Assembly: GCA_040220875.1 (NCBI GenBank)
Contig: JAVJVX010000006.1
Coordinates: 124,001-188,000, forward strand
Source: Alphaproteobacteria bacterium
GTDB taxonomy: Bacteria > Pseudomonadota > Alphaproteobacteria > JAVJVX01
DNA length: 64,000 nt
Reading direction: 5' to 3'
In this document: in pieces, positions 2,473 through 42,643 of the stretch
How positions within the stretch are numbered: position 1 is the first letter of the stretch
Layout of the letters: each line of letters starts with the position of its first letter
The notes under the pieces: model-generated
What the model was told of the DNA's origin: nothing
Seen by the model: the letters and a program-made list of their open reading frames with translations, nothing else
Database searches by the model: none
Program-made: the position numbers and the translations under genes

Positions 2473-2801
2473 CAGGCCGGGCAACTGTGCCGGCGCGAAA
2501 ACGGGCCCGGATTTTCATCCGGGCCCGTTCCGTCTCACCTTAACCAACCGGGTTTCATCCCGGCACCCAACCGGTGCCTGATCCGGGCAACCCCGCCGCC
2601 TCGTCCCATCAGCGGGTTTGGCCGGGACCGGAAGAGCATCGCAACCGCCTGCCGGGTGCCTTTCCAGGGGGAGATCAGCGGGGCACAGCAAGCCCGGCCG
2701 ACGGCGGCGAAGCATGGCGAAACCGTAGCATCGGGGCCGACCCTCCCGATAGTCGAGGTCACCCGTTTGTGAGACGATTTGAAGAGCCGGGCGTGCCCGG
2801 C
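2473..2801. other. Structured intergenic region between ggt and the sensor kinase gene
   Basis: This 329-base gap has no convincing protein gene; its short open frames look like composition artefacts. It is full of GC-rich inverted repeats. Examples are GGCACC/GGTGCC at about 2562-2578 and CCGGG/CCCGG just before it, plus GCCGGG near 2695-2700 pairing with CCCGGC near 2622 as read on the minus strand. On the minus strand it ends in a strong hairpin with a short T run. It could be the 3' untranslated region of the kinase mRNA or a separate minus-strand small RNA. I do not recognise a known RNA family. Confidence 0.4.
2501..2528 (-). terminator. Strong hairpin, probable intrinsic terminator for minus-strand transcripts
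   Basis: A perfect 12-bp stem, ACGGGCCCGGAT, closes a 4-base loop. Read on the minus strand the stem is followed by TTTT, as expected of a Rho-independent terminator. It could end the sensor kinase transcript or a small RNA. On the plus strand it also lies 28 bases after the ggt stop but lacks a T run there, although it might still act as a weak bidirectional terminator. Confidence 0.6.
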
Positions 2802-4205
2802 TCAATCGCCGAGCGGCAGATAGAGGCGGAACGTCGTGCCCTCGCAGCCGGTCCGGACCATCTCGATTCCGCCTCCATGGGCGGCGACAATCTCACGCGC
2901 AATGGCAAGGCCGAGGCCGCTGCCGCCTGCCTTCTCCGATCCGGCAAAGGGCTCGAACAGGGATTTGAGCGCGTTCGGCGGCAGGCCCGGACCGTTATCG
3001 CTGATATCGATTTCGGCGCTGGCGTTGCGGCGGCACGCCGAGACCGAGACCTTGTGAGCGCCGGCCTGGCGCGCGTTGCCGATGAGATTTGTCAGCACGC
3101 GGTCGATCTGGTCGCGGTCGGCCACAAGGCGAAAATCCTCGCCGACCCTGTTTTCCAGCGTGAAGTCGGTTGCCGCCTCGGCCTTAAGAGGGGTCGCAAG
3201 TTCCTCGATCAGAGGGCGGAGAAATATCGGCTCCGGCCGGACCAGTGGCGCATCACGACGCGCATATTCCAGCGTGCGAACGCACAACGTTACGGCCCGG
3301 TCGATCGACCGGATCAGCGTCGGCGCGACCTTTCGGACGTCAGGATCGGTGCTGGCCGACAGGCGGTCCGACACCAGGCTGGCGGCCGAGAGAATGTTGC
3401 GCAGGTCATGATTGATCCGGGTCATGGCCGCCCCCAGCGCAGCCAGCCGGGTTTTTTGCGACAGCGCGAGGCGCAGGTCCTTTTGCATGCCGGCCAGCGT
3501 TTCCTCGACGAGGCCGATCTCGTCACGCCGGCCCGAGGGCCGGATCTCGCGCGATGCATCCTCGGGATTCGCCTGGAAGTTCAGCATCGAGTCCGTGATC
3601 CGGCGTATCGGCCGCACCATCAGCCAGCGCAGGGCAAAAAACACGAGCCCGGCCGTGATGACCGAAATCATCACCGACAATTGCAGGATGTTCCACGAAT
3701 AATGCAGCATCGCTGCGCGCATCGGCGCTTCGTCGATCAGGACCTCGATCAGGATCGAGGTGTTTTTGGGCGACGGGCCGATCACGCGCAAGACCCGATT
3801 CCCGTCCTGGCGCAATGTATCCACCGCGGCCAGAAGGTAATCGACGAAGCTGAACGTCTCGATATCGAGCGTGAGATCCGCCGTCGGCGGTGTCGACAGT
3901 GTGAGGATGCGCTTGCTGCCGTCGAGATCGATCAACACCACAAGATGCGCCCCCGCATGCCCCAGCAACTCGCGGCTGAGATCGGGGCTGACCATGAAGT
4001 CCGGCGTCGCCTCGAGGGCCAGGGCGGCGAGATGGCCGGTCTGCAGCTTTTCGTCCAGATAGGTTTTCCAGAAATTTGCCATCGAGGGGGCGTAGATCAG
4101 GAATTCCCCCAACATGACGAAAAGGATCGTCAGGATCAGCAAGCGGGAGGACAAGCCGGGCGCAAGTCCGGGGCGCGATTTCCTGTGCTGCACCGTGGCG
4201 GCCAT
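2802..4205 (-). CDS. Membrane sensor histidine kinase with HAMP domain
   Basis: The 467-residue protein has a first membrane helix at about 21-39, a periplasmic sensor region at 40-175, a second helix at about 176-194 and a HAMP linker ending in a DEIG element. The phospho-acceptor box is unusual, INHDLRN with His266, where SHELRT is common. The catalytic ATP domain has NLIGNARQAG (N box), DNGPGLP (G1) and GGSGLGLAIAREI (G2). It should autophosphorylate and pass phosphate to a response regulator, but no regulator gene adjoins it, so it is an orphan. The ATG at 4205 with upstream GGAG is preferred; an in-frame start at 4256 would add 17 residues. Confidence 0.85.
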   Translation of the reverse strand: MAATVQHRKSRPGLAPGLSSRLLILTILFVMLGEFLIYAPSMANFWKTYLDEKLQTGHLAALALEATPDFMVSPDLSRELLGHAGAHLVVLIDLDGSKRILTLSTPPTADLTLDIETFSFVDYLLAAVDTLRQDGNRVLRVIGPSPKNTSILIEVLIDEAPMRAAMLHYSWNILQLSVMISVITAGLVFFALRWLMVRPIRRITDSMLNFQANPEDASREIRPSGRRDEIGLVEETLAGMQKDLRLALSQKTRLAALGAAMTRINHDLRNILSAASLVSDRLSASTDPDVRKVAPTLIRSIDRAVTLCVRTLEYARRDAPLVRPEPIFLRPLIEELATPLKAEAATDFTLENRVGEDFRLVADRDQIDRVLTNLIGNARQAGAHKVSVSACRRNASAEIDISDNGPGLPPNALKSLFEPFAGSEKAGGSGLGLAIAREIVAAHGGGIEMVRTGCEGTTFRLYLPLGD

Positions 4206-4305
4206 CCCGTTGAAATCTCCGCTTCCTGTGCCCGGTGCCCGCCCGAACCGGTCCACGAAGCCGGCGGGCTGGCGCGATCCGGCGCTCGGCCTAGCCTAGC
4301 CTGAT

Positions 4306-4337
4306 CCGGCCATGTTTTCCGGCCATGTTTTCCGGCC
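4306..4337 (+). repeat. Two tandem 13-bp repeats plus partial third copy
   Basis: The unit CCGGCCATGTTTT occurs at 4306-4318 and 4319-4331 and is followed by CCGGCC. It lies in the gap between the kinase gene start and the rpmH promoter. No function is evident; slippage during replication could explain it. Confidence 0.7.
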
Positions 4338-4435
4338 TAGATTGCGCCCGCCGGCCCCGGCGGGCAAGGCTGCGATCGCCCCGGCCAGTCAGGGCCCGGT
4401 GCCTCGAAAGAGGCGGTTTTCAGCCCATCTCCCGG

Positions 4436-4464
4436 TTGACTTCGCCCCCGTCTCCCCCTATACA
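4436..4464 (+). promoter_or_regulatory. Sigma-70 type promoter for rpmH operon
   Basis: TTGACT at 4436-4441 and TATACA at 4459-4464 are separated by 17 bases, close to the bacterial housekeeping consensus. The -10 ends 49 bases before the rpmH start codon. This is where a promoter for the rpmH-rnpA-yidD-yidC cluster is expected. Confidence 0.75.
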
Positions 4465-4513
4465 GCCCGCGCATCATCCTCGCGACCCGTACGCGCGCCA
4501 AGGGAGCCAGACG

Positions 4514-4648
4514 TTGAAACGCACCTACCAGCCCAGCAAACTGATCCGGAAGCGCCGGCACGGGTTCCGGGCGCGTATGGCCAGCGCCGGCGGTGTCAAC
4601 GTGCTGAAAAGGCGCCGCGCCAAGGGGCGCAAGCGCCTCTCCGCCTGA
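4514..4648 (+). CDS. rpmH: 50S ribosomal protein L34
   Basis: The 44-residue product is the complete, highly basic L34 of the large ribosomal subunit, with [20 protein letters not shown] at its N-terminus. The start must be TTG at 4514, because residue 2 onward is the invariant beginning of L34 and no ATG or GTG lies at that position. An AGGGAG ribosome site sits 7 bases upstream. A near-consensus promoter precedes it and rnpA follows directly, the arrangement seen in most bacteria. Confidence 0.97.
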
Positions 4649-4673
4649 CGGCCTTCCGTCCATGGGGGCGGTC

Positions 4674-5078
4674 ATGCCACCCCGTCTCCAGCGCCTCAAA
4701 AATCGCAGCGATTTCCAGCGCGTGGCCCGCGCCCGCCACCGGGCCGTACGCGACGGCCTGATCCTCCAGGCGGCACCGGCGCCGCCCGGCCTGCCCCCAG
4801 GGACGACCCGGATCGGCTTTACCGCAAGCCGCCGCGTGGGTAATGCCGTCACCCGGAACCGGGCCCGACGCCGGCTCAAGGCGGTGGTGGACAGCGTCCT
4901 CCGTCCCCATGGCGCGCCCGGCCATGATTACGTGCTGATTGCCCGGCGTGACACCCCCGCGCGACCCTTTGGTGCGCTGGAAAAGGATCTCGCCCAGGCG
5001 CTCCGGCGGCTCAAGCTCTATGTTGACGCCGACGCCGATATAGGCGATGCAGCCCCGGTTACTCGATCCCACCCCTGA
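4674..5078 (+). CDS. rnpA: Ribonuclease P protein component
   Basis: The 134-residue basic protein is the cofactor of RNase P, which removes 5' leaders from pre-tRNAs. It carries the RNR signature region as [20 protein letters not shown], preceded by the [15 protein letters not shown]-terminal helix typical of the family. It follows rpmH by 25 bases. The ATG at 4674 has a GGGGGCGG stretch before it; an in-frame ATG at 4662 is a possible alternative. The C-terminus runs into the yidD upstream region. Confidence 0.93.
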
Positions 5079-7869: not shown

Positions 7870-8826
7870 ATGTCCCGCCCCATGAAAACGACCAAGCCAG
7901 CCGAAAAAAACGTGTGGCTCGAAAAGGCCAAAACCCTTTCCGAGGCGCTCCCCTATATGCGCCGCTATGCCGGCAGCACCTTCGTGATCAAGTATGGCGG
8001 TCACGCGATGGGGGACGAGCATCTGGCCAGCACCTTTGCGCGTGACGTGGTGCTGCTCAAGCAGGTGGGGATCAACCCCGTGGTGGTGCATGGCGGCGGA
8101 CCGCAGATCGCGGCCATGCTGGAGCGGCTCAAGATCAAGAGCGAATTTGTCGATGGTTTGCGCGTCACCGACGCGGCCACGGTGGACATCGTCGAGATGG
8201 TGCTGTCCGGCTCGATCAACAAACAGATCGTCTCGGCTATCAACAAGGCGGGCGGTAATGCGATCGGGCTTTCGGGCAAGGATGGCAACCTGATCACCGC
8301 GCGCAAACTGACCAAGACGCAACGGGCGACGGATTCGAATATCGAAAAGATTCTCGATCTTGGCTTCGTGGGCGAACCAAAAGAGGTGAACCCGCGCCTG
8401 CTTCAGGACATGCAGAATTCGGCCGTCATCCCGGTCATCGCGCCGATCGGCGTGGGCACGCGGGGCGAGACCTACAATATCAATGCCGACACGGCGGCGG
8501 GTGCCGTGGCATCAGCCATCAAGGCAACGCGGTTCTACCTGTTGACCGACGTCGCCGGCGTGCTGGATCGCGACGGCAATCTCCTGACCGACCTCGATCT
8601 CGAGGAGGCCGAGGCGCGGATCAGCGACGGGACGATCACAGGCGGCATGATCCCCAAGGTTGAGACCTGCATGAGCGCCGTCCGCGCCGGGGTCGAGGCG
8701 TCCGTCATCATCGACGGGCGCACGCCCCACGCGCTTCTGCTCGAGATTTTCACGGCCCATGGCGCGGGCACGCTCATCCGGGGGACCGGGAGTGACAAAG
8801 CGGGCGAACAGCCCGTCAGCGAGTAG
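7870..8826 (+). CDS. argB: Acetylglutamate kinase
   Basis: The 318-residue amino-acid kinase phosphorylates N-acetylglutamate in the second step of arginine synthesis. [10 protein letters not shown] near 39-48 is the nucleotide-binding lysine and glycine element. VVHGGGPQI binds the substrate, and the GGMIPKVE segment is the family's C-terminal signature. The length and N-terminal helix suit the arginine-sensitive hexameric type. The start follows engB by 31 bases and an in-frame ATG lies 12 bases further on. Confidence 0.96.
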
Positions 8827-8834
8827 GATCGCGC

Positions 8835-10112
8835 TCACGCGGCCACAGAGTCGCCGAGATCCAGGAAGAACGAGATCTGCCATTCCATCTCGGATGTCGA
8901 GAGGGGGAAATCGACGCCGGCTTTCGGATGCAATACCGAGGCGGGCGAGACGCGGGCCACGCGCATCTGCAGGGTGGTGGAAAGGCGCATGCCCAGGCCC
9001 GCTTTCCAGACCAGGGCGGTAATGCCCCGGGCGCTGGCCGAATCGATGATCTTGGTCGCGACCTCCTCCGGCAGATCTGCGAGACAGGCGAGGCCGGCGG
9101 CGATGAACGCACTCTCGCGCGCGGCCACGGCCTCGGAAAGAACATCGGCTGTCAGTTCGCCGGCCGCGTGGAGGCGGCGGGCACGGGCGGCGGGCGGCTC
9201 GCCGGCCGTGGCGTCGGACTCGGTCTCTTGAAGCCGCTTTTCCATGACGCGCGCGATCGAGTGGAGAACAGCCGGCGAAAGATCGGTCCGCCGGCTCAAT
9301 TCCTTGAGCAGTGACCGGCTGACAAAGCGCGCGATCCGCGCCAGGGTGGGCCCCGGGATCTGTGTGCGGCGCACCAGCGGCGCGTGCCACGCCTTGATCT
9401 CGCGGGCATGATCAGCAATCACATCGAGAGTTTCCTCGCGGATTTGCGCGCTGTCATTCGCGAGGAGCTCGGCCACCGCCGGTATGTCCCCGGTGCTCAC
9501 GAGCGCATCGGAGACAGGCGCCATCAGGTCACGCCGGCTGGCGATACGCGACAGGCTGCCCGAGCCCGGATGACTGCGGATAATTGCCAGCAGATCCTCC
9601 TCGGACAGCAGGGGAGAGAATTCCAGAAGGGGAGCGGCGACGGACAGGTCCGGATCACGGGCGAGCGCCCGAACGGCGCGCGCCACCTCGGGCGGCACAT
9701 TCGATACCTCGGAAAGGGAGCGGGCCAGGGCGGCGCGGACCCGACTCAACTGGTCGGCCGCCAGAATATCGATCATCTCGGTGATCATGTTTTGCAGTTT
9801 TTCAGCCTGTCCCGGCGCAAGCCCGGGTGCGAACGTCCGGACCTTGCGCGCCAGGGCCAGCCTGACATCATCGTCGGGATCGCGTGCGAGGCGCACATCG
9901 GCCTGAAGCGGTGTCTTCGGGTTGGCCGCTGTCGCGGCCCTCACGCCGGAATCAGGATCGCCCGCCAGGTAATAGAGAACTTCGGGATGCGAATCGGCCC
10001 GCCCGGCCACGCGGCGGCGAACCTTGCCCTTGGCATGCTGGATCAGGTCGCGTTCGCGCGAATAGCCGAGCCGGCCCGGCAGTCTGAGGCGGAGGGCGTC
10101 CATCAGCTTCAT
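8835..10112 (-). CDS. DUF2336 HEAT-like repeat protein of the c-di-GMP operon
   Basis: The 425-residue protein is made of repeated short helical units, for example DPDDDVRLALARKV and DQLSRVRAALARSL, typical of HEAT-like alpha-solenoids. It resembles the alphaproteobacterial DUF2336 family, for which no enzymatic role is established. Its ATG overlaps the stop of the upstream diguanylate cyclase gene by 4 bases (ATGA), so it is translationally coupled to it. This supports a role as scaffold or effector in cyclic-di-GMP signalling, which is inference. It ends 8 bases from the convergent argB stop. Confidence 0.8.
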   Translation of the reverse strand: MKLMDALRLRLPGRLGYSRERDLIQHAKGKVRRRVAGRADSHPEVLYYLAGDPDSGVRAATAANPKTPLQADVRLARDPDDDVRLALARKVRTFAPGLAPGQAEKLQNMITEMIDILAADQLSRVRAALARSLSEVSNVPPEVARAVRALARDPDLSVAAPLLEFSPLLSEEDLLAIIRSHPGSGSLSRIASRRDLMAPVSDALVSTGDIPAVAELLANDSAQIREETLDVIADHAREIKAWHAPLVRRTQIPGPTLARIARFVSRSLLKELSRRTDLSPAVLHSIARVMEKRLQETESDATAGEPPAARARRLHAAGELTADVLSEAVAARESAFIAAGLACLADLPEEVATKIIDSASARGITALVWKAGLGMRLSTTLQMRVARVSPASVLHPKAGVDFPLSTSEMEWQISFFLDLGDSVAA

Positions 10113-11812
10113 GGCGCGGCCTCGGGAATCTGCGAATGCCCGGCCCGTGCCGCCCCGGTGTGGCCCGAACCCATGCGGGCCTTGCTTTCACGCTTGACGG
10201 CGTACATCTCGCTATCGGCCCGAGCGGCGATATCGGCGACAGATTCGGTCGAGTGGGGTTCGACCATGGCGAGCCCGATGGACAGCGCGACCGGCCGCCG
10301 GGGATCCGTGGTGTATTTGCCGAGCACCTCCCCCGCGTTCGCGAGTTGGGCCACCTTGGCGAGTGCGCCCGGACGATCGGTATCGTCAAGCCAAAGGGCG
10401 AATTCATCACCGCCCAGACGCGCAACCAGATCGTTGATACGCGTTTCCTGCGTGAGCAGCGCGGCCACCTCGCGAAGCGCCTCGTCCCCGGCCTGATGGC
10501 CCAGGCGGTCGTTCACTTCCTTGAAGTGATTGAGATCGATGAAGCAGAGCGCTGCCGGCCGGCCCGCGCGGCGAACTCGGGCCAGGCGGGTCTCCGCTTC
10601 CTCGTAGAACACCCGGCGATTGGCGAGGCCCGTCAGCGAATCGGTGCGCGACAGATCGGCCAGCATCTCCTTGTTTTCAACCTGCGCAAGCACAACGCCC
10701 ATCTGACTGGCGATCCGCTCGAACAGGGTTTCGGCCCCCTCTTCCGCATCGGCGCCGAGCCAGACCATCAATGCCGCCTGCCGTACGCCGCGGCGCGTCA
10801 CGGGATGCGCCAGAAGACGCCGTTCGCCAATGGGCCGGTCCGATTGGGCGCCCATGTCATCGAGGGCCGGAATGAGCCCCGCCAATTCGGCCGCCGCCGG
10901 CACCGGCCCATCGGCCGCCGCCAGAACAAGCCCGCCCGAGCCGCCCTCGGGTCTGAGAAGGGCCGACGCCTCGGCCCCGAGCCCGTGCCGGATGACCCGG
11001 ACCGCCGTGGAGAGCATGTCGCCGGCCTCGATCTCATCGTGGATCTTGCGAAATATCCGGTCGAGAATCCGGTCGTGGTTGCGGACGCGCGCCAGATCGC
11101 GTGCCCGGGCGCGCTCGGCGGTGACATCGCGGCAAATGCCGCGCGCCCCCACCCGTCGGCGCTTGCCGTCGAGCAGGCCGATGGCGTGGGCCAGAAAAAT
11201 GCGCGACGTCCCATCGGCCGCGAACATCGTCAACTCGACATCCTCGAGGGTCTCATCGGCGCGGAACGGGTCGGCCCCGTCGATCAGTTCGTCCACAAAA
11301 TCGTGTGCCTGCCGGCCGACGAGGTCGCGCGCGCTGTAGCCCAGAGCACCCCGCGGGGAAACGAAAACGAACCGGCCCGTATTGTCTGTTTCCCAGGCGA
11401 AGTCGCTGGTGAGCTCGATCAGATCCTTGTAGCGCTCGCGCGATTCCACAAGCGCGGCACTCAGATTGCGGTCCAGCGTCACATCCCGCCCCAGCATCGT
11501 CACTGTTCCGTCGCTATCCGCCACAGCCGTGAAATCGAAAAGCCGCTCTCCCCGATCGGGCGCAAGGACGATGCGGGCGGTTCCGGGCACGCCGGACTGC
11601 CGCACCCGATCCGCCAGCTCGCGGAAAGCCACGACCGTGTCCGGCGTCAAGTCATCGCCGCAAGCACGGCGCGCGGCCAGGTTCAGCCAGACAGGGGTAT
11701 TGCGGGCATCAACGCAAAGGGCCGGCTCGAGGCAGGCGGCGAGAAATCCGTCGGCCCTCGGACCGGAGGACGGACGCGAGCGCCCCAGATATGCGAAAAG
11801 ACGGGAAAACAT
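10109..11812 (-). CDS. Diguanylate cyclase with two PAS-like domains and a GAF-like domain
   Basis: The protein makes c-di-GMP from two GTP if active. Counting from an in-frame GTG four codons upstream, PAS-like regions lie at about 30-115 and 130-240, and a GAF-like region at 255-385. The GGDEF domain at 386-545 carries an intact GGDEF motif (471-475). An RxxD inhibitory site (RIND, 462-465) sits exactly five residues ahead, so product feedback is likely. No membrane helix is seen, so it is cytoplasmic. The ATG at 11812 is used; GTG at 11824 is an alternative. It starts within 17 bases of the stop of the EAL gene and overlaps the DUF2336 gene. Confidence 0.9.
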   Translation of the reverse strand: MFSRLFAYLGRSRPSSGPRADGFLAACLEPALCVDARNTPVWLNLAARRACGDDLTPDTVVAFRELADRVRQSGVPGTARIVLAPDRGERLFDFTAVADSDGTVTMLGRDVTLDRNLSAALVESRERYKDLIELTSDFAWETDNTGRFVFVSPRGALGYSARDLVGRQAHDFVDELIDGADPFRADETLEDVELTMFAADGTSRIFLAHAIGLLDGKRRRVGARGICRDVTAERARARDLARVRNHDRILDRIFRKIHDEIEAGDMLSTAVRVIRHGLGAEASALLRPEGGSGGLVLAAADGPVPAAAELAGLIPALDDMGAQSDRPIGERRLLAHPVTRRGVRQAALMVWLGADAEEGAETLFERIASQMGVVLAQVENKEMLADLSRTDSLTGLANRRVFYEEAETRLARVRRAGRPAALCFIDLNHFKEVNDRLGHQAGDEALREVAALLTQETRINDLVARLGGDEFALWLDDTDRPGALAKVAQLANAGEVLGKYTTDPRRPVALSIGLAMVEPHSTESVADIAARADSEMYAVKRESKARMGSGHTGAARAGHSQIPEAAP

Positions 11813-24600: not shown

Positions 24601-24697
24601 GGGAGACCGGACAGCGACCCGAGCGAAATCTCGTTACGGCTGCTTCCTTCCGGACCTGACCGGGTTGGCGAGCGGCTCGTCCACCGCCGGGCTCCCG
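24601..24697 (-). ncRNA. ffs: Signal recognition particle RNA (4.5S, small bacterial type)
   Basis: The minus strand carries the SRP RNA apical core GTCAGGTCCGGAAGGAAGCAG, whose GGAA tetraloop region and asymmetric loop bind Ffh. The ends GGGAG and CTCCC pair to close one long hairpin of about 97 nt. It lies just upstream of dnaX, a common bacterial location. Exact ends are estimated from the pairing and from the promoter. Confidence 0.93.
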
Positions 24698-32515: not shown

Positions 32516-34330
32516 ATGCGCTTCCTTACCCCCGTTCCACTTTTGATCTTGCTCATTTTAGGCTGCGATCCGGCGCCCCCCGCCCTCGCCCAGGAGGAAG
32601 TCCCGGCCCGGCACGGCATCGCGATGCATGGGACGACGAAATACGGACCCGACTTCACCCATTTCGATTACGTCAATCCGGATGCGCCCAAGGGCGGGAC
32701 AGCGCGCATGGCGGCAATCGGCACCTTTGACAGCCTCAATCCGTTTATCCTGAAAGGCACGGCGGCGGCCGGGATCGGCGCCATACACGATACGCTGATG
32801 GCCAACTCGGGCGACGAGGCCTTTTCCGAATACGGCCTGATCGCCAAATCGATCGAGGTCCCGGCGGACCGGTCCTGGGTCATCTTCAACCTGCACGAGG
32901 AGGCGCGGTTCTCCGACGACTCGGCCATCACCGCCGATGACGTGATTTTCAGTTTCGATACGCTCAGCCACAAGGGACACCCGTTCTACCGCGCCTATTA
33001 CGGCAGCGTTGCCGAGGCCGAAAAACTGGGGCCGCACCGGGTACGGTTTTCCTTCAAGCCCGGCGAAAATCGCGAACTGCCGCTGATCCTGGGCCAGTTG
33101 CCGGTTCTCTCGAAGGCGTACTGGACGGCGGCCGATTTCGAGAAGACCACGCTGGAACCACCCGTCGGCAGCGGCCCCTATACCGTCGCCGAGCTGGACC
33201 CGGGACGCAGCATCACCTATCGCCGCAACCCCGAATACTGGGCCCGGTCCCTGCCGGTGCGCCGGGGCACCAACAATTTCGATGTCATCCGTTATGACTA
33301 TTACCGCGACAACACAGTGGCGCTGGAGGCATTCAAGGCGGGCGAATACGATTTCCGCCGCGAAAACTCCTCCAAGAACTGGGCCACGGCCTACGATTTT
33401 CCGGCCGTCGAAGACGGGCGCGTGAAGGTCGAGGAGATCCCCAACGACGTGCCGACCGGCATGCAGGGCTTCGCTTTCAATATCCGGCGGTCGATGTTCA
33501 TGGATCGCGGCGTACGCTGGGCACTCGCCCATGCCTTCGACTTCGAGTGGTCGAACAAGAATCTCTTCTACGGGGCCTATGAGCGGACCAAGAGCTATTT
33601 CTCGAATTCCGAGTTGGCCTCGCGCGGGCTTCCTCTGGGGCGCGAGCTGGAAATTCTGAACCGGTATCGCGGCCTCGTTCCGGAAGAGGTCTTCACTCAA
33701 CCCTACGAGCCGCCGAGCACGAAAGACCGGCGGCTTCGTGACAATCTGCGCGAGGCGCTCCGCCTGCTGGAACAGGCGGGCTGGATGGTCCGAAATGGAC
33801 AGCTGACGAATCTGGAGACCGGCGAACCGATGGAATTCGAGATTCTGTTGGTCAGTCCCGATTTCGAGCGGGTGGCCCTGCCATTCGCCAAAAACCTCGA
33901 ACGGCTGGGAATCAAGGCGAATGTCCGCACCGTGGATACCGCGCAGTACCAGAACCGGCTCGATAATTTCGATTTCGACATGGTCGTCGCGGGTATCGGG
34001 CAGTCCCTGTCGCCGGGGAACGAGCAGCGCGATTTCTGGGGCTCGGAAAGTGCCAATACGCCGGGCGGCCGCAACCTGATCGGCATCGTCGACCCGGTGG
34101 TGGACGAGCTGGTGGAGCTGGTGATCGCCGCGCCCGATCGTGAAAGCCTCGTGGCCCGGACGCGCGCCTTGGACCGGGTCCTGCTTTGGGGTCATTACGT
34201 CATCCCCCACTGGCACATCCGCCATTTCCGGGTCGCGTACTGGGACAAGTTCGATCGCCCCGCCATCACGCCCGAATACGATCTCGCCTTCGATACCTGG
34301 TGGGTCGACCCGGCCCGCACCGAGCCCTGA
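32516..34330 (+). CDS. yejA: ABC transporter substrate-binding protein YejA-like
   Basis: The 604-residue protein is an extracytoplasmic solute-binding protein of the oligopeptide (SBP_bac_5) family. A signal sequence covers about 1-25; it contains both LILLILGC (possible lipobox) and an ALA|Q cleavage site, so anchoring is uncertain. [29 protein letters not shown] is split here only by description: its key parts are HGIAMHG and [10 protein letters not shown], typical of the YejA branch. It starts the yejABEF operon, whose E. coli homologue imports microcin C-type peptides. Confidence 0.9.
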
Positions 34331-34343
34331 GGCGCCTGCCGCC

Positions 34344-35441
34344 GTGCCCGCCTATATCCTTCGCCGGCTGCTGCTGATCGTTCCGACCCTTTTCGGAATC
34401 ATGGTGGTCAATTTCATCGTGGTCCAGGCCGCGCCCGGCGGGCCGGTCGAACAGGCCATTGCCGAACTGCGCGGGGTCGCTGTGGGGGCGACCGCGCGGA
34501 TCGGCGGGGCGGATAGCGGCGAAATGCGGCAGCGCGACGCCAGCGACGGCGGCAGCTCCAGCTATCGCGGCGCCCAGGGTATCGATCCCGCGTTTCTGCG
34601 TGAACTCGAGGCGCAATACGGTTTCGACAAGCCGGCGGGCGAGCGGTTCTGGCAGATGATGGGCAATTATCTGCGCTTCGATTTCGGCGAGAGCTTCTTT
34701 CGCGACCAGAGTGTCATCGATCTCGTCCTCGACAAGCTGCCGGTGTCCATTTCGCTCGGCCTCTGGTCGACGCTCATCATCTATCTCATTTCCATTCCCC
34801 TTGGCATCACCAAGGCGATCCGCGACGGCAGCCGCTTCGATGTCTGGACGAGCGCTATTGTGATCGTGGGCTACGCCATCCCCGGGTTTCTTTTTGCCAT
34901 TCTGCTCGTCGTGCTGTTCGCTGGCGGCAGCTTTCTCGACTTCTTCCCGCTGCGCGGCCTGACCTCGGAAAACTGGGACGACCTCGGCCTCTTTGCCAAG
35001 ATCGCGGATTATTTCTGGCACCTCACCCTGCCGGTGCTGGCGATGGTAATCGGCGGTTTTGCCGGGCTGACCATGCTGACCAAGAATTCCTTTCTGGAAG
35101 AGATCAACAAGCAATACGTGACGACCGCCCGCGCAAAAGGGCTTGGGGAGGGCGCGGTCCTTTACCATCACGTGTTTCGCAATGCGATGCTGATCGTGAT
35201 TGCGGGATTCCCGGGCGCCTTCCTTTCGATTCTTTTTACCTCCTCCCTTCTGATCGAGGTGATTTTCTCGCTCGACGGACTTGGTCTGTTGGGCTTCGAA
35301 TCCGCCATAAATCGCGACTACCCCGTGATGTTCGGAAGCCTCTATTTCTTCACTCTCATCGGCCTTTTACTGAAGCTGGTGAGCGATCTCATGTATGTGC
35401 TGGTGGATCCACGCATCGACTTCGAATCGCGAGGCGTGTGA
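34344..35441 (+). CDS. yejB: ABC transporter permease YejB
   Basis: The 365-residue inner-membrane permease begins [17 protein letters not shown] after a GTG start at 34344, matching the N-terminus and length of E. coli YejB. It has about six helices, with the cytoplasmic EAA-like loop around [20 protein letters not shown] that contacts the ATPase. A serine/glycine-rich insertion lies near residues 50-80. It starts 13 bases after yejA. Confidence 0.93.
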
Positions 35442-35463
35442 CGTGGCGACAAGGGCAATAGGA

Positions 35464-36510
35464 ATGTCGCGCTGGCGCCCGTCACCCCTGACACGCCGGC
35501 GCCTCGATGCGTTCCGGCGCAACCGCCGGGGCTATTACTCGCTATGGATTTTTCTGGTGCTGTTCGGACTGAGCCTGTTTGCCGAGTTTCTGGCGAACGA
35601 CCGGCCCATCCTCGTCCGGTTCGACGGTGCCTTCTACATGCCGGTCGTGACCGATTATCCCGAGACCGCCTTCGGCGGCGATTTTCCGACTGCGGCCGAC
35701 TACCGTGACCCGTACGTGCGGGACCTCATCACGGAAAAGGGCTGGATGGTCTGGCCACTAATTCCCTACAGCTACGATACGATCAACCGCGCACTCGACC
35801 GCCCGGCTCCGGCCCCGCCTTCGCCCGACAACTGGCTTGGCACCGACGATCAGGGGCGCGATGTCCTGGCGCGGCTGATCTACGGCTTTCGCATCTCGGT
35901 GCTGTTCGGCCTCACCCTGACCATATTGAGTTCGATCATCGGCGTGGCTGCCGGCGCGGTGCAGGGCTATTTCGGTGGTTGGACGGACCTGATGTTCCAG
36001 CGCTTCATCGAGATCTGGAGCGGCCTGCCAACGCTTTATCTGCTGATCATTCTCGCAAGCGTCGTGCAGCCAAATTTCTGGTGGCTGCTGGGGCTCATGC
36101 TGCTTTTCAGCTGGATGGGGCTGGTCGATGTCGTGCGCGCGGAATTTCTCCGGGCGCGGAACTTCGATTATGTGCGCGCGGCGCGCGCGCTTGGCCTGTC
36201 GAACATCGCCGTGATGTGGCGCCACGTATTGCCCAACGCCATGGTGGCGACACTTACCTTTTTGCCCTTCATCCTGAACGGATCGATTACCACACTGACC
36301 TCGCTTGATTTTCTCGGGTTTGGCCTGCCGCCGGGCTCGGCCTCGCTGGGCGAACTGCTGGCCCAGGGCAAGGCCAATCTGCAAGCGCCGTGGCTCGGCA
36401 TGACCGCATTCCTCGTTTTGGCCGTGATGTTGAGCCTTCTGATTTTCATTGGCGAAGCGGTGCGCGACGCGTTTGATCCGCGCAAGGCATTGCCCGAGGC
36501 ACGGCGATGA
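35464..36510 (+). CDS. yejE: ABC transporter permease YejE
   Basis: The 348-residue permease starts MSRWRPSPLTRRRLDAFRRN and continues RRGYYSLWIFLVLFGLSLF, very close to E. coli YejE. The family motif WLGTDDQGRDV (NWLGTDDQGRDVLARL) and the EAA loop ARALGLSNIAVMWRHVLPNA are present. ATG at 35464 is preferred over GTG at 35443. It overlaps yejF by 4 bases. Confidence 0.93.
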   Translation: MSRWRPSPLTRRRLDAFRRNRRGYYSLWIFLVLFGLSLFAEFLANDRPILVRFDGAFYMPVVTDYPETAFGGDFPTAADYRDPYVRDLITEKGWMVWPLIPYSYDTINRALDRPAPAPPSPDNWLGTDDQGRDVLARLIYGFRISVLFGLTLTILSSIIGVAAGAVQGYFGGWTDLMFQRFIEIWSGLPTLYLLIILASVVQPNFWWLLGLMLLFSWMGLVDVVRAEFLRARNFDYVRAARALGLSNIAVMWRHVLPNAMVATLTFLPFILNGSITTLTSLDFLGFGLPPGSASLGELLAQGKANLQAPWLGMTAFLVLAVMLSLLIFIGEAVRDAFDPRKALPEARR

Positions 36511-38150
36511 CGGCGTCACCAGAGGAGACGCTGGTGCGGGTGGAGAATCTGTCCGTCGCCTTCAGCCTGGGCCGGGATGAGACGGCACTGGCGGTCCGGG
36601 GCGTTGATTTCGACATCCGGCGGGGCGAGACCCTGGCCCTGGTGGGCGAAAGCGGCTCGGGCAAGACGGTGACCGCGCTTTCGCTTCTCCAGCTTCTGCC
36701 TTACCCGGCGGCGAGCCATCCGAGCGGCCGCATCCGCTTTGAAGGCGAGGACCTTCTCGGCGCCAGCGCCGAAACGCTCCGCCGGGTGCGCGGCAACCGG
36801 ATTTCGATGATCTTCCAGGAGCCCATGACCTCGCTCAACCCGCTGCACACGATCGAGCGCCAGATCGGCGAAACCCTCAGCCTGCACAAGGGGCTGAAAG
36901 GGGGCGCCGTACGGGCCCGCACCCTCGAACTGCTGGAGCTCGTCGGGCTGGCGGACGGGGAAAGCCGTCTCAATGCCTTTCCGCATCAGCTTTCCGGCGG
37001 GCAACGTCAGCGGGTGATGATCGCAATGGCGCTGGCAAACGAGCCTGACCTGCTGATTGCGGATGAGCCGACCACCGCGCTCGACGTGACCATTCAGGCG
37101 CAGATTCTGGCACTTCTGAAGGATTTGCAGGGACGTTTCGGCATGGCGGTCCTGCTGATCACCCATGACCTCGGGATCGTGCGTCACATGGCCCACCGCC
37201 TTGCCGTCATGCGCGCGGGCGAGATCGTCGAAACCGGCCCGGCCGAGGCAATTTTCGCCAAGCCCGGCCACCCCTATACGCGCGCACTGATGGCGGCCGA
37301 GCAGCGCGATACCCCGACACCCCGGTCGCTCGATACCGAGGTCGTGCTCGATTCGGAAGACCTGAAAGTGTGGTTTCCCGTCCGGCAGGGGCTGCTCCGG
37401 CGCACGAAGGATCATATCAAGGCGGTGGACGGGCTGAGCCTGTCCCTCAGGCGCGGCCGGACGCTTGGTGTCGTGGGCGAAAGCGGCTCGGGCAAAACCA
37501 CCCTCGGCCTCGCCCTCCTGCGACTGACCCAGAGCACCGGGGCGATCCGTTTTCAGGGTGAGCGGATCGACGGCCGGGACTGGCGCCAGCTGCGCCATTT
37601 GCGCCGGCGGATGCAGATGGTTTTCCAGGACCCGTTCAGCTCCCTCAGCCCGCGGTATTCGGTGCGCCAGATCATCGAGGAGGGGCTGAAGCTGCATCGC
37701 ATCGGGGCCGATGCCGGCGCCCGGACGCGGCTTATCGAGGAAGTGCTCGAGGAGGTCGGCCTCGACCGCACCACGATCGACCGCTACCCCCACGAATTTT
37801 CGGGCGGGCAGCGCCAGCGCATCGCCATCGCCCGAGCCCTTGTCCTGAGGCCCGATCTCCTGGTCCTGGACGAGCCCACCTCAGCCCTCGATATGTCCGT
37901 CCAGGCCCAGGTAATCGACCTTCTGCGCAGGCTTCAGGCCCGGCACAACCTGGCCTATCTGTTCATCAGCCACGACCTCAGGGTGGTCCGGGCTCTGGCC
38001 GACGACATCCTCGTGATGCAGAACGGCCGGGTGGTCGAGGCAGGCCGGGCGGACCGCATTTTCGAGGCACCCCAGGCGCCCTATACCCGGGCGCTTTTCG
38101 CCGCCGCCCTCGATCACCGCGCTGTGGCCGGCGGCATCGTCGCCACCTGA
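36507..38150 (+). CDS. yejF: ABC transporter ATP-binding protein YejF, two fused ATPase domains
   Basis: The 547-residue protein has two complete ABC domains. The first has GESGSGKT, LSGGQRQRVMIA and LLIADEPTTALD; the second has GESGSGKT, FSGGQRQRIAIA and LLVLDEPTSALD. The fusion of both ATPases in one chain is the YejF architecture. It powers the YejB/YejE importer. Confidence 0.95.
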   Translation: MTASPEETLVRVENLSVAFSLGRDETALAVRGVDFDIRRGETLALVGESGSGKTVTALSLLQLLPYPAASHPSGRIRFEGEDLLGASAETLRRVRGNRISMIFQEPMTSLNPLHTIERQIGETLSLHKGLKGGAVRARTLELLELVGLADGESRLNAFPHQLSGGQRQRVMIAMALANEPDLLIADEPTTALDVTIQAQILALLKDLQGRFGMAVLLITHDLGIVRHMAHRLAVMRAGEIVETGPAEAIFAKPGHPYTRALMAAEQRDTPTPRSLDTEVVLDSEDLKVWFPVRQGLLRRTKDHIKAVDGLSLSLRRGRTLGVVGESGSGKTTLGLALLRLTQSTGAIRFQGERIDGRDWRQLRHLRRRMQMVFQDPFSSLSPRYSVRQIIEEGLKLHRIGADAGARTRLIEEVLEEVGLDRTTIDRYPHEFSGGQRQRIAIARALVLRPDLLVLDEPTSALDMSVQAQVIDLLRRLQARHNLAYLFISHDLRVVRALADDILVMQNGRVVEAGRADRIFEAPQAPYTRALFAAALDHRAVAGGIVAT

Positions 38151-38284: not shown

Positions 38285-38329
38285 ATTGCAAATCATTCGC
38301 AATAAGGTGCCGCCTGATTGCGAATGATT
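38285..38329. promoter_or_regulatory. Inverted pair of Fur-like boxes upstream of porin gene
   Basis: AATCATTCGCAAT (38291-38303) and its exact reverse complement ATTGCGAATGATT (38317-38329) are 13 bases apart. The first is also part of ATTGC-N9-GCAAT (38285-38303). Both arms contain the ATCATT/AATGAT hexamer typical of ferric uptake regulator sites. They lie 108-152 bases before the porin start codon. A 13-bp hairpin terminator for yejF is an alternative reading, but the arms are AT-rich with no T run. Confidence 0.55.
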
Positions 38330-38436
38330 ATGACTTTCGTTCGCAGAAAACAATACCGGTTGCGTGGCGGGCGCCGACGGCCCCGCCCAGGGATCCAGCC
38401 GGGCCCGAATCTGCAGAACAAAGGGGGAGCACTTCC

Positions 38437-39684
38437 ATGAATGACATCAACCGAAAGGCGCGCATGTTCCGGACGGTGGCCGCCGGTGCCGTATTGGCGG
38501 CGCCGATCCTGGCCCTGTCCGGCGCCGCCGCCAGCGCCCAGTCGCCCACCCCGCAGGAGATGTGGGACGCGCTGCAGCGCCAGCAGGAGAAGATCGACGC
38601 CCTCGAGCAGCGCCTCGAGGAAACCGATACCAGGGTGGAGGCCTCGGCCGACGCGATCGAGGCGGCCGGGACCGGCGGCGAGGGCTGGTGGAACCGGACG
38701 TCACTCGGCGGCTATGGCGAGCTTCATTACAATGGGGGCGACAAGGACGAACTCGATTTCCATCGGTTCGTTCTGTTCATCAATCACCAGTTCAGCGACC
38801 GCACCCGACTTTTCTCGGAGCTGGAGCTGGAGCATTCCCTTGCCGGGGACGGGGCGCCGGGCGAGGTAGAGCTCGAACAGGCCTTCATCGAGCACGATTT
38901 CAGTCAGTCCACGACCGGACGGGCGGGCCTGTTCCTCATCCCCGTGGGCATTCTGAACGAGACCCACGAGCCGCCGACCTTTTACGGCGTCGAGCGCAAT
39001 CGCGTCGAAAGCAACATCATCCCGACCACCTGGTGGGAAGGTGGCGCCGGCTTCGATTACACGACGCAGAACGGCCTGCGCTTCGACGCGCTCGTGCATG
39101 GCGGGCTGGACGTGCCAATCACCGGCTCCAACGCCTTCCGTGTCCGCAGCGGACGACAGAAAGTCGCCGAATCGACGTTGCGCAGTCCCGCCCTGACGGG
39201 CCGCATCCGCTATACCGGCCTGCCGGGTATCGAACTGGCCACCACCTTCCAGCATCAGTTCGATGTGACCCAGGGCGATGCGGGCGACCCTGATACGGAC
39301 GCGACCCTGTGGGAAGCGCATGTCGATGCCGAACGCCAGATCGCGCAGCAGGTCAGCCTGGGACTCCGGGCGCTCTATGCGCGCTGGGACCTCAAAGGCT
39401 TCGCGGCAGAGGCCGTCGGGCGGGACAAGCAATACGGCTGGTATGTCGAGCCATCCTTCAAGGTCGCCACCGGTATCGGCGGGCTCGGCTTTTTCGCGCG
39501 CTACAGCGAGGATGACAACAACGCCGGCAATTCGATCGACACCAAGACAAGCCAGGTCACTGTCGGGATGAACTACTGGCTTCACCCCAATGTGGTCCTG
39601 AAATGGGATTTCGATTTTCAGGACACGCCTGCGGGGGTGGCCGATGACGATCGGCTCAATCTGGGGATCGGCTTCCAGTTCTAA
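38437..39684 (+). CDS. Outer-membrane porin-like beta-barrel protein
   Basis: The 415-residue protein has a signal peptide ending ASA|Q near 35 and a short coiled coil at about 42-66 (QRQQEKIDALEQRLEETD). A barrel with alternating polar and aromatic strands follows, ending in the terminal phenylalanine (IGFQF) recognised by the Bam machinery. It resembles phosphate-selective-type porins with an N-terminal coiled coil. An AAGGGGGAG ribosome site precedes ATG 38437. Upstream Fur-like boxes and downstream flavin-transfer genes suggest a role in iron or flavin-linked metabolism. Confidence 0.8.
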   Translation: MNDINRKARMFRTVAAGAVLAAPILALSGAAASAQSPTPQEMWDALQRQQEKIDALEQRLEETDTRVEASADAIEAAGTGGEGWWNRTSLGGYGELHYNGGDKDELDFHRFVLFINHQFSDRTRLFSELELEHSLAGDGAPGEVELEQAFIEHDFSQSTTGRAGLFLIPVGILNETHEPPTFYGVERNRVESNIIPTTWWEGGAGFDYTTQNGLRFDALVHGGLDVPITGSNAFRVRSGRQKVAESTLRSPALTGRIRYTGLPGIELATTFQHQFDVTQGDAGDPDTDATLWEAHVDAERQIAQQVSLGLRALYARWDLKGFAAEAVGRDKQYGWYVEPSFKVATGIGGLGFFARYSEDDNNAGNSIDTKTSQVTVGMNYWLHPNVVLKWDFDFQDTPAGVADDDRLNLGIGFQF

Positions 39685-39686
39685 CG

Positions 39687-39723
39687 TGCGTCTCCCTTGG
39701 TGCGTCTCCCTTGGCGCGTCTCC
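39687..39723 (+). repeat. Tandem 14-bp repeat after porin gene
   Basis: TGCGTCTCCCTTGG occurs at 39687-39700 and 39701-39714, followed by a partial third copy CGCGTCTCC. It begins 2 bases after the porin stop. No function is evident. Confidence 0.75.
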
Positions 39724-39809
39724 TGCCGGGCACGGGACTTGACCTTTTCAAAGCGCTCATGTCCCGTGCTCGGACCCTTTTTCCAAGCTTGGGGGGATTC
39801 CGGAACCCA

Positions 39810-40367
39810 ATGCCTTCGCGGTTGCCACTTCATCTGGCCGTCCTGCTGACGGCGCTTTACCTCGCCGCCCCGGTGGCGGCGGAAGATGTCTATCTTGCGC
39901 CCGATGCCTTTCTGGACAGCGTGTTTTCGGGCAGCCCCCCGCGAGCGGAAACCATCTGGCTGACGGGCGCGCGGCGCGACGCGGCGGCGCGCATCCTCAA
40001 TCGTCGGCCGGCGGCCCTCCGGGTCCGCTACTGGCGGGACGGGCCGCGCACCGCGTGGATCCTGGAGGAGATCGGAAAGACCCTGCCGATCACGGCGGGA
40101 TTCGTCGTCGAGGAAGGGCCGGAGGGCGGTGAGCTGGCCAGGCTGGACGTGCTGATTTACCGGGAAAGCCACGGCTGGGAAGTGCGCCACGATTTCTTCA
40201 CGGAACAGTTTGAACGGGCCCGCCTGACGGAGAAGCTTACGCTTACCCGTGCGGTCGATGGAATCTCGGGCGCGACGCTCTCGGTCAGCGCCATGAAGGC
40301 CATGGCCCAGCTCGCGCTGTATCTCCACGGCGAGGTAATGACTGAAGCCGGGGAGAGGACGCGATGA
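39810..40367 (+). CDS. Small periplasmic FMN-binding domain protein
   Basis: The 185-residue protein has a signal peptide ending VAA|E near 24 and an FMN-binding domain of the NqrC/RnfG/NosR type. The motif DGISGATLSVSAM supplies SGAT-x-S with Thr156 as the expected site where ApbE attaches FMN through a phosphoester. It therefore should be a covalently flavinylated periplasmic electron carrier. Its stop overlaps the next gene by 4 bases, and apbE is third in the set, so its modifying enzyme is co-expressed. Confidence 0.85.
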   Translation: MPSRLPLHLAVLLTALYLAAPVAAEDVYLAPDAFLDSVFSGSPPRAETIWLTGARRDAAARILNRRPAALRVRYWRDGPRTAWILEEIGKTLPITAGFVVEEGPEGGELARLDVLIYRESHGWEVRHDFFTEQFERARLTEKLTLTRAVDGISGATLSVSAMKAMAQLALYLHGEVMTEAGERTR

Positions 40368-41161
40368 GCCGGCCGTCGTCCCGCAAAACCAACGGCGATC
40401 GCAGTTCCTGGCTGCGCTGGCACCGCCGTGTCGGGCTCGCGGCGGCGCTTGTCATCGTCATCGTGGCGATCACGGGTGTCCTGCTCAACCACGTCGAGGA
40501 ATTCGGCCTGCGCGAGACCACAACCACCCTTCCGTTTCTGACCCGGCATTACGCTCCCTCGAGCGACGTCGCCATGACCGGGACCGCACTCAACGGCACC
40601 TGGCTGGTGGCGGCCGAGGGACGGCTGTTTCTCGATGGTCGTGGTGTGGCCGAGATCGGCGAGGGATTTCGCGGCGCGGTCGTGCTCGACGACATAATTG
40701 CCGTGGCAAGCGCCTCGGATATCGTTCTTCTCACCCATGACGGATTCCTGATCGAACGGCTCGGCCAGGCCAGCCTGCCCGGCGCCGTCGAACGAATCGG
40801 CCTGGTCGACGGACAAGTCGCGGTCGCGACCGCGCGCGGTTCGTTTGCGGCCGATGACGAGTTTCTGGCCTGGCGGCCGCTCACAGGTGGCTCCGCGGGA
40901 GACACCGCGCCGACAGCGGTGGTCTGGGCCCTGCCCGGCACGGTACCGGACAATATCCGGACCGAGGTGCTGGGGGCGCTCGGCCGGGCCGGCGTATCGC
41001 TGGAGCGACTGGTGCTCGATCTGCACACGGGGCGAATTCTGGGAAGCTGGGGGGTCTATCTGGTAGACCTTGCGGCGCTCAGCCTGATCTTCCTTGTCGT
41101 GACCGGTATTTTCCGCCGCCGCCCGCGGAACGGCGGCCGAAAGGATGGATCATGGTCATGA
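40364..41161 (+). CDS. PepSY-associated two-helix membrane protein
   Basis: The 265-residue protein begins with WLRWHRRVGLAAALVIVIVA, a His-containing first helix like those of PepSY-TM proteins. It has a long periplasmic middle and a second helix at about 230-252 ending RRRP. Some PepSY-TM proteins bind heme between such helices and pass electrons across the membrane. Here it would connect inner-membrane electrons to the flavinylated partner encoded just upstream; that role is inference. Both ends overlap neighbours, so it is tightly coupled. Confidence 0.75.
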   Translation: MSRPSSRKTNGDRSSWLRWHRRVGLAAALVIVIVAITGVLLNHVEEFGLRETTTTLPFLTRHYAPSSDVAMTGTALNGTWLVAAEGRLFLDGRGVAEIGEGFRGAVVLDDIIAVASASDIVLLTHDGFLIERLGQASLPGAVERIGLVDGQVAVATARGSFAADDEFLAWRPLTGGSAGDTAPTAVVWALPGTVPDNIRTEVLGALGRAGVSLERLVLDLHTGRILGSWGVYLVDLAALSLIFLVVTGIFRRRPRNGGRKDGSWS

Positions 41162-42180
41162 CGTCCTCGGACAGAAGCGTCGGACGACGGCGGGTCCTGA
41201 CGGTTCTGGCAGGGCTCCCCGTCATGGCGGCTGGCCTGGCGGCCGCGGCCCGGCAGACGAATGCAGGGGCGCCGGCCATCGCCCGCTGGACGGGAAGCGC
41301 GCTCGGCGCGGATGCAGGCCTGCAGGTCGCGCATCCGGATGCGCGCGTGGCGGCGCAACTCGTCGCATCCTGCCGGCAAGAGATCGAACGGATCGAACGG
41401 CTGTTCAGCCTGTACCGGCCGGACTCGGCTCTGGCACGCCTCAACCGCACCGGAACGCTCAACCGGCCGCCGGCCGATTTCCGCCTGCTGCTGGATTATT
41501 GCCGGCAAATCTTCGAAAGCACGGCAGGCGCCTTCGATCCTACCGTTCAGCCCTTGTGGGAAGCTTGCCGCGATCATTTCTCAGCCGGCACCGCGGACGA
41601 AGCGGCCCTCGACGAGCGTCTTGCCAGGGCGCGGAGGCTGACAGGGTTTCAGCATGTGCAGGCAGATGATCGCGCCATCCGCTTCGCCCGGGACGGCATG
41701 GCGGTGACGCTGAACGGAATTGCACAAGGCTTCCTGACGGACCGGATCGCCGCCCTGCTCCGCCGGCACGGTGTGAACAGCGCGCTCGTCGAGACCGGCG
41801 AAACCTACGGCTTGGGCCAGCGGCCCGATGGCAGTGGCCCCTGGCGGATCGGCCTGGCGGCGCCGGGGTATCGCAGCCTGTCGCGGATCGTAAGCCTGTC
41901 GGACCGCGCCGTCGCGACCTCGGCCCCCGATGCCGCCCGGTTCGACAGGGAGGGCCGGTATCACCATCTGTTCGACCCTGCCACGGGCCGGCCCAGCCAG
42001 CGCTATCGGAGCGCGTCGGTCATCGCCCCCACCGCCTGGCTGGCCGACGGGTTTTCCACCGCATTCAGCACAATGAGCCGGGCCGAAATCGAGGCCGCTC
42101 TCGCGCGCCACCCCGGCACGGGCGCCCTTTTAATCGACCGCAAGGGCCGGCAGCAGATTCTGGGCGATATGCCGATATAG
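41158..42180 (+). CDS. apbE: FAD:protein FMN transferase ApbE
   Basis: The enzyme (340 residues from ATG 41158; ATG 41152 also possible) attaches FMN to threonine in SGAT-type motifs. SVGRRRVLTVLAG at the N-terminus is a twin-arginine signal, so it is exported. Family motifs are GAFDPTVQPLW, LNGIAQGFLTDR (the usual Lys of GxxKG is Gln here), ALVETGE, the VATSAPDAARF loop and ADGFSTAFSTM with the metal-binding Asp. ATGA overlaps the PepSY gene stop. Confidence 0.92.
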   Translation: MTSSDRSVGRRRVLTVLAGLPVMAAGLAAAARQTNAGAPAIARWTGSALGADAGLQVAHPDARVAAQLVASCRQEIERIERLFSLYRPDSALARLNRTGTLNRPPADFRLLLDYCRQIFESTAGAFDPTVQPLWEACRDHFSAGTADEAALDERLARARRLTGFQHVQADDRAIRFARDGMAVTLNGIAQGFLTDRIAALLRRHGVNSALVETGETYGLGQRPDGSGPWRIGLAAPGYRSLSRIVSLSDRAVATSAPDAARFDREGRYHHLFDPATGRPSQRYRSASVIAPTAWLADGFSTAFSTMSRAEIEAALARHPGTGALLIDRKGRQQILGDMPI

Positions 42181-42187
42181 GGCCGAA

Positions 42188-42541
42188 TTAATCGCCGGTC
42201 GCGCCGCCCGCCCTTCGGCCGGCAACGGAATCGGCCAGTTCGGCCAGAAAGACGGATCCGGTAACCGTCCGATGGACGATGATGGAACGCTTGTCGCGCG
42301 TATCGGTGCGCCGCCGGACGAAGCCGAGACCTTCCAGCCGGTCCAGCGCGCGGGTCACCGCCGGCTTGCCGATACCGAGCCTGGCCGCGAGCCCGCGGAC
42401 CGTGGGCAGGCCGCCCTCGAGATAGACCGCCAGCATGACTGCCGTCTGACGCAGGGTCAGGTCGGGCCCGTCGAGGCGGAGGATTTCCTCGACCGCCGCC
42501 TGCCAGGTCCGAAGCGCGGCAGGGCCCGATTTTTCCACCAT
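42188..42541 (-). CDS. MarR-family transcriptional regulator
   Basis: The 117-residue protein is a compact winged helix-turn-helix. The recognition region is TVRGLAARLGIGKPAVTRAL, followed by DRLEGLGFVRRR and the wing DTRDKRSIIVHRT. It should bind DNA as a dimer and respond to a small ligand. GAGGG lies 6 bases before ATG 42541; ATG 42589 would add a low-complexity 16-residue extension. It is convergent with apbE, 7 bases away, so what it controls is unclear. Confidence 0.85.
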   Translation of the reverse strand: MVEKSGPAALRTWQAAVEEILRLDGPDLTLRQTAVMLAVYLEGGLPTVRGLAARLGIGKPAVTRALDRLEGLGFVRRRTDTRDKRSIIVHRTVTGSVFLAELADSVAGRRAGGATGD

Positions 42542-42643
42542 GAACGGCCCTCGCTCGCCCTGCCGGGCCGCCCGTGCCGGCCCGGTCATTTCGCACCCGA
42601 AACAATGTAGGAAATTTTCACCGGCCCGCCAAGCCGCGCCGCA

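Follow-up and report, generated by a model that had tools for sequence, protein, structure and literature searches.

We analysed a stretch of 64,000 nucleotides (the window) from the genome of an alphaproteobacterium (Alphaproteobacteria bacterium, assembly GCA_040220875.1, contig JAVJVX010000006.1, positions 124,001 to 188,000), hereafter the host, and focused on a cassette of four genes that lie on the same (+) strand between positions 38437 and 42180. They encode, in this order, a porin, a protein with a flavin mononucleotide (FMN)-binding domain (FMN_bind), a PepSY_TM protein and a member of the flavin adenine dinucleotide (FAD):protein FMN transferase family (ApbE). The features of the locus are as follows:

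38287..38301, no strand assigned: Fur-type box 1, TGCAAATCATTCGCA, a 7-1-7 inverted repeat with the maximum score of the 7-1-7 Fur consensus
38319..38333, no strand assigned: Fur-type box 2, TGCGAATGATTATGA, score 12.4 of 13.4, second in the window
38437..39684, + strand: porin gene, 415 amino acids, weak matches to porin profiles
39686..39723, + strand: 14-bp direct tandem repeat, GTGCGTCTCCCTTG, 2.7 copies (Tandem Repeats Finder), just 3' of the porin stop codon
39726..39782, + strand: terminator-like hairpin, stem of about 13-16 bp and loop of 14, followed by ACCCTTTTT (T-run); fold z-score of the gap -2.6
39810..40367, + strand: FMN_bind gene, 185 amino acids, PF04205 above cut-off
40257..40277, + strand: flavinylation motif DGISGAT (D150-T156); D150, G154, A155, T156 and S158 are invariant in 73 sequences
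40364..41161, + strand: PepSY_TM gene, 265 amino acids, PF03929 with E = 6e-15, PF16357 also above cut-off
41152..42180, + strand: ApbE gene, PF02424 with E = 3e-61, alternative ATG start at 41158

An earlier reading of this DNA, made from the sequence alone (the sequence-only reading), had given the same gene order and an overlap of 4 bases at each junction of the last three genes. The order and the overlaps stand, and the FMN_bind and PepSY_TM genes do overlap by 4 bases; between PepSY_TM and ApbE the overlap is 4 bases when translation starts at the ATG at 41158 and 10 when it starts at 41152. Its placing of the threonine of the SGAT motif at residue 156 of the FMN_bind protein is right when counted from the start at 39810, and the paired Fur-like boxes that it saw upstream of the porin gene, at 38287 and 38319, are the top two matches of the window.

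In order to assess the conservation of the gene set, the FMN_bind protein was used to scan 84,980 species genomes. This yielded 251 relatives, of which the best 80 loci were used; these come from Alpha- and Gammaproteobacteria and from Verrucomicrobia (Opitutales, Pelagicoccus), besides a few metagenome bins with other labels. Tepidicaulis marinus and Pelagicoccus mobilis are carriers that can be cultivated. The porin gene stands beside the FMN_bind gene in 77 of these 80 loci and the PepSY_TM gene likewise in 77, with order and strand kept, while all three loci that lack the porin, and one of the three that lack PepSY_TM, lie at the end of a contig or of the stretch examined. As these loci had been selected by way of FMN_bind, a bias to be removed, 190 genomes of the host's class were searched separately with FMN_bind and porin profiles. 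Strong FMN_bind matches (about 1e-70) occurred in seven of the 190 genomes, and the porin profile was strong in the same seven and nowhere else (Fisher p ~6e-13); a further genome of the class had a weak FMN_bind match (3e-18) and no porin match. The two genes are adjacent in six of the seven carriers and on separate contigs in the seventh, a fragmented assembly. This two-way co-occurrence rules out that the genes are neighbours by accident. The sequence-only reading had named homologues seldom found together as the outcome that would speak against it; the outcome was the opposite, i.e. porin, FMN_bind and PepSY_TM form a conserved trio, and the reverse search with the porin agrees. Its four-gene order holds for this trio, whereas apbE adjoins in 18 of the 80 loci only (12 downstream, 5 divergent upstream, 1 convergent) and was therefore rejected as a core member. 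An ApbE is encoded somewhere in 39 of 40 module genomes, which makes apbE a facultative member of the cassette and its usual helper. The genes argC, hemJ, erpA and ptsP and a FecCD-type permease gene found near the Chromatiales loci were also rejected as partners, being lineage synteny.

The iron link was borne out in the sequence, and more strongly than the sequence-only reading had put it. Across the 2.54 Mb of the host genome, TGCRAATNATTYGCA is matched exactly by box 1 alone, and the sole match with one mismatch lies 92 bp upstream of feoA, in a feoAB pair, so that the best boxes of the genome are common to the cassette and feoAB. When the 7-1-7 Fur consensus (maximum 13.4) was scored in 69 porin promoters of related loci, 51 % carried a box of at least 12, against 0.5 % of 405 control promoters (other genes of the same loci) and 0.1 % of shuffled sequences. 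Gammaproteobacterial and verrucomicrobial porin promoters are among those with Fur-type boxes, so the boxes are conserved across phyla; as gene order and boxes are both conserved, chance can be excluded. A scan of the cassette region for sigma-70 promoters gave no match. The host encodes two FUR-family proteins. The third-best Fur-like box, TGATAATCATTTGCA (L091, G000:C5:164430), precedes an open reading frame for an uncharacterised protein of 170 amino acids, followed by the gene of a ZnuA-like binding protein; it could be a Zur or a Fur site.

Genes of iron metabolism also recur around the module. FeoB adjoins it in three loci (L062, L068 and L099), where 0.16 would be expected by chance on a rough Poisson estimate. 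In L099 (G059:C15, 1860-7404), genes for FeoB, a MerR-type regulator and an ArsP-type permease lie directly 5' of porin-FMN_bind-PepSY_TM-apbE, and in L068 (4180-4470) the FeoB and porin genes diverge from a common intergenic region with Fur-like sequences. In L104 (G097:C3:107000-118000, 2098-4723 and 8139-10652) the iron permease FTR1 and a cupredoxin are encoded next to the module and apbE, and a TonB-dependent receptor gene flanks the opposite side; FTR1 was looked for in the host genome as its iron importer and was not found. A bacterioferritin gene stands beside the module in nine loci, not all of them independent. The single TonB-dependent receptor of the host (L087, G000:C6:220000-227000, 1581-3825) lies behind a cobalamin riboswitch and adjoins a Peripla_BP_2 protein; from this setting, the two are probably BtuB and BtuF.

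The FMN_bind protein carries a signal peptide read from its sequence (..AAPVAA|ED) and is thus predicted to be secreted. PF04205 is matched by all 73 family members, and the invariant WILEEIGK, RES and FFTxQF blocks are peculiar to the subfamily. Its DGISGAT fits the complete ApbE target motif, D-x-x-[S/T]-G-A-[S/T] (PMC12052999), and family knowledge predicts that ApbE, which is itself predicted to be exported on a twin-arginine-like signal (GRRRVLTVL), would attach flavin covalently to Thr156. Whole-genome searches found exactly one FMN_bind protein and one ApbE in the host, so the two must work with each other, or else with non-FMN_bind substrates. The FMN_bind proteins of the NqrC, RnfG and UrdA type share the domain and the ApbE motif, but the cassette protein forms a subfamily of its own outside any Nqr/Rnf or reductase context: no Nqr or Rnf genes lie beside the host FMN_bind gene, and the RnfG model gives 16.6 bits against a cut-off of 205. 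A sequence search of the PDB with the porin and FMN_bind alignments returned no informative match.

The structural model of the PepSY_TM protein (mean predicted local distance difference test, pLDDT, 89.5) shows a first transmembrane helix at about 10-42, a periplasmic domain of 12 strands at about 71-172 and a second transmembrane helix at about 228-251. PF03929 is matched by all 68 family members; in these homologues His20 and His221 are invariant and His43 is conserved in at least 90 %, in line with the axial histidines that FoxB-type reductases keep at the helix ends. The best Foldseek matches of the 12-strand domain are beta-propellers (NHL, WD40, BamB), all with E above 0.004, and include a propeller made of two half-propeller chains; we describe the domain as propeller-like and do not assign its fold. 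Both helices align with the first and last transmembrane helices of the ferrisiderophore reductase FoxB (7ABW), the inner helices of FoxB giving weaker echoes; in this alignment His20 and His221 each fall on a histidine of FoxB, and His43 lies next to a His-His pair in the first FoxB helix. On these models FoxB looks like a duplicated form of the two-helix unit, four helices of which would be restored in a PepSY_TM homodimer, and by family resemblance the protein would bind heme. As the PepSY_TM proteins compared in PMC13038864 all have at least four helices, the two-helix form appears to have gone unstudied so far.

The AlphaFold model of the porin (mean pLDDT 84) comprises a signal peptide, an N-terminal coiled coil at about 39-77 and a 16-stranded barrel, and Foldseek relates it to the OmpC, OmpK36, OprP and DcaP porins (E 1e-12 to 1e-14). 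With the Porin_O_P family (PF07396; OprP, OprO, DcaP) it shares the 16 strands and the coiled coil; the window protein reaches 17.4 bits against a cut-off of 20.9, and 55 of 61 family members match at E <= 0.1. The lumen is predicted to hold on average 17.6 acidic, 8.8 basic and 5.7 histidine residues, the facing being taken from hydropathy alternation and not from coordinates. Whereas an arginine ladder selects phosphate in OprP, conserved Glu, Asp and His (E95, H97, D107, H109, E128, E130, E132, E338) dominate the predicted lumen here, which disfavours an OprP-like phosphate porin. The pore loop is unusually conserved (HEPxTFYGVERN).

The porin and FMN_bind genes are 125 bp apart, and this gap holds the tandem repeat and the strong terminator-like hairpin listed above, both absent from the sequence-only reading. 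Of 77 related loci, 20 carry a hairpin followed by a T-run in this gap, compared with 9 of 230 control stretches; this recurrence suggests a conserved attenuation of the transcript. The hairpin is a plausible candidate attenuator, i.e. a partial terminator that would give a high ratio of porin to redox proteins.

Meheust et al. 2021 (PMC8238504) gave an operational definition of PepSY-like flavinylation systems, and the cassette falls under it, PF03929 and PF16357 being above cut-off in a gene that adjoins those of FMN_bind and ApbE. Such systems place a PepSY_TM gene (PF03929/PF16357) by apbE and a flavinylation substrate; their clusters are linked to iron and are Fur-repressed in Shewanella and Caulobacter, and iron reduction was already proposed for them in that survey. 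However, 2833 of the 3220 systems use DUF2271, many with DUF4198 and sometimes a TonB receptor, whereas the substrate of the cassette is FMN_bind and its outer-membrane partner a porin; three transmembrane helices are typical but not defining for those systems (PMC8238504), against two long ones in our model. New in the cassette are an FMN_bind substrate instead of DUF2271, tied to a dedicated porin within a fixed trio, a PepSY_TM protein with two helices and a propeller-like domain, the spread across phyla, and Fur boxes that are conserved where a TonB receptor is missing. Neither of the two main surveys of flavinylation mentions porins, nor does the review on ApbE, although the supplementary tables of the surveys, which lay outside this comparison, may list members without comment. 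Text searches of the literature found no description of a porin, FMN_bind and PepSY set, and within that literature the suggestion of the sequence-only reading that the porin-led set may be undescribed holds.

Taken together, the cassette is probably a Fur-repressed, assimilatory module for periplasmic ferric reduction, fed by its own porin. The small periplasmic redox chain, perhaps acting on ferric iron entering by the porin, that the sequence-only reading had proposed is supported by the conserved trio and the Fur boxes. When iron is short, Fur would leave both boxes and the operon would be expressed, the hairpin probably raising the yield of porin over that of the redox proteins. Ferric iron would enter the periplasm through the porin, probably as small or labile chelates, while ApbE would use exported FAD to attach FMN to Thr156. 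The PepSY_TM protein, probably a homodimer rebuilding a FoxB-like four-helix heme bundle, would take electrons from the membrane (the donor being perhaps quinol) and pass them to the FMN_bind protein, which would reduce Fe(III); a further transporter in the inner membrane (FeoAB in the host, other importers elsewhere) would then take up the resulting Fe(II). The sequences show the gene set and its conserved order, the flavinylation motif, the histidines, the Fur-type boxes common to the cassette and feoA, and the single pair of ApbE and FMN_bind proteins. The flavinylation by ApbE, the heme and transmembrane electron transfer of PepSY_TM and the specificity of FeoB are predicted from what is known of these families; iron as the substrate, the direction of the electrons, the substrate and selectivity of the porin, the dimer and the attenuation are less certain than these. 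A wider claim, possible but on the doubtful side, is that the cassette drives a TonB-independent, redox-driven import of iron, in which an acidic porin admits labile ferric iron and a covalent-flavin protein fed by a two-helix, propeller-bearing cytochrome reduces it and traps it as Fe(II), this being the main high-affinity iron entry that replaces siderophore receptors where the sole TonB receptor is B12-controlled, as in the host.

Several points weigh against the ferric-reduction reading. The acidic lumen of the porin is itself a prediction from sequence, and the two-helix PepSY_TM protein is without a characterised homologue. FeoB, present in 22 of 40 module genomes and not significantly enriched in the seven carriers of the class (2/7 versus 23/183, p 0.23), is unsupported as an obligatory partner, and its patchiness implies that the Fe(II) importer is not fixed. 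Some alphaproteobacterial Fur orthologues (Mur) respond to manganese, and Fur-type boxes cannot by themselves tell iron from manganese sensing. Moreover, CrpH of Bordetella is a PepSY_TM protein linked to copper and oxidase function (PMC13038864).

Among the alternatives, reduction of ferrisiderophores or xenosiderophores is rather unlikely. The porin would then be a TonB-independent siderophore channel, as LbtU and FslE are, and the redox chain would free the iron as FoxB and HiuB do. TonB-independent outer-membrane iron receptors do exist (PMC5378763), the conserved pore loop would suit such a channel, and PepSY_TM is kin to FoxB, which like HiuABC is a Fur-controlled siderophore reductase: with FoxB, HiuB and FpvG it shares the superfamily, heme-ligand-like histidines in corresponding helices and Fur control. 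These reductases, however, span the membrane with four or more helices, hold their substrate in a cavity of periplasmic PepSY domains (PMC13038864) and work with TonB receptors, while the cassette combines a two-helix protein that bears a propeller-like domain with a distinct flavoprotein and a porin; the PepSY domains, and with them the cavity that holds the siderophore in FoxB, are absent. LbtU and FslE/FupA bring iron across the outer membrane without TonB and in a Fur setting, as the cassette would, and FupA works with FeoB, but they are without known redox partner genes, unlike the cassette. Neither siderophore ABC (ATP-binding cassette) importers nor TonB receptors are recurrent neighbours of the module, and the NCBIfam siderophore-porin models gave no match to the porin at E <= 0.01, the presence of an LbtU model in that set being unconfirmed.

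The same redox chain could instead handle another metal, most plausibly copper, through Cu(II) reduction for oxidase assembly, or manganese, through a Mn-sensing Fur. CrpH and the Mur proteins mentioned above speak for this, but Fur-type boxes also stand on the gammaproteobacterial and verrucomicrobial copies, the box is common to feoA in the host, the neighbours of the module include FeoB, FTR1 and bacterioferritin, and no copper gene was seen recurring near it, which makes another metal improbable. A system for respiration or redox balance that sheds electrons onto acceptors outside the cell or in the periplasm (flavins, humics, Fe(III)), in place of iron uptake, would agree with the part that ApbE and FMN_bind proteins play elsewhere in anaerobic reductases and in electron transfer to the outside of the cell (PMC8238504). 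It is very improbable, however, as Fur repression suits iron starvation and not iron respiration, and genes for multiheme cytochromes or terminal reductases do not recur next to the module.

Around the cassette, the window holds genes of an Opp/Dpp-type peptide ABC transporter (34140-38150; two permeases and a fused double ATPase), which end just 5' of it. A MarR gene on its 3' side (42188-42589, minus strand) was considered as a regulator and judged unrelated, having no homologue in the 80 loci. Further upstream lies a bacterial small signal recognition particle RNA (24601-24693, minus strand; Rfam RF00169, 55 bits).

The passage of iron through the outer membrane without TonB receptors is poorly known; the usual assumption is that ferrous iron diffuses through porins, and FupA of Francisella is a rare specific case (PMC5378763). 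A Fur-boxed cassette that ties a single subfamily of porins to what would be a flavin reductase, and that is conserved from Alphaproteobacteria to Verrucomicrobia, makes this question testable, and it offers for that purpose a minimal, unstudied PepSY_TM protein and a simple set of four genes.

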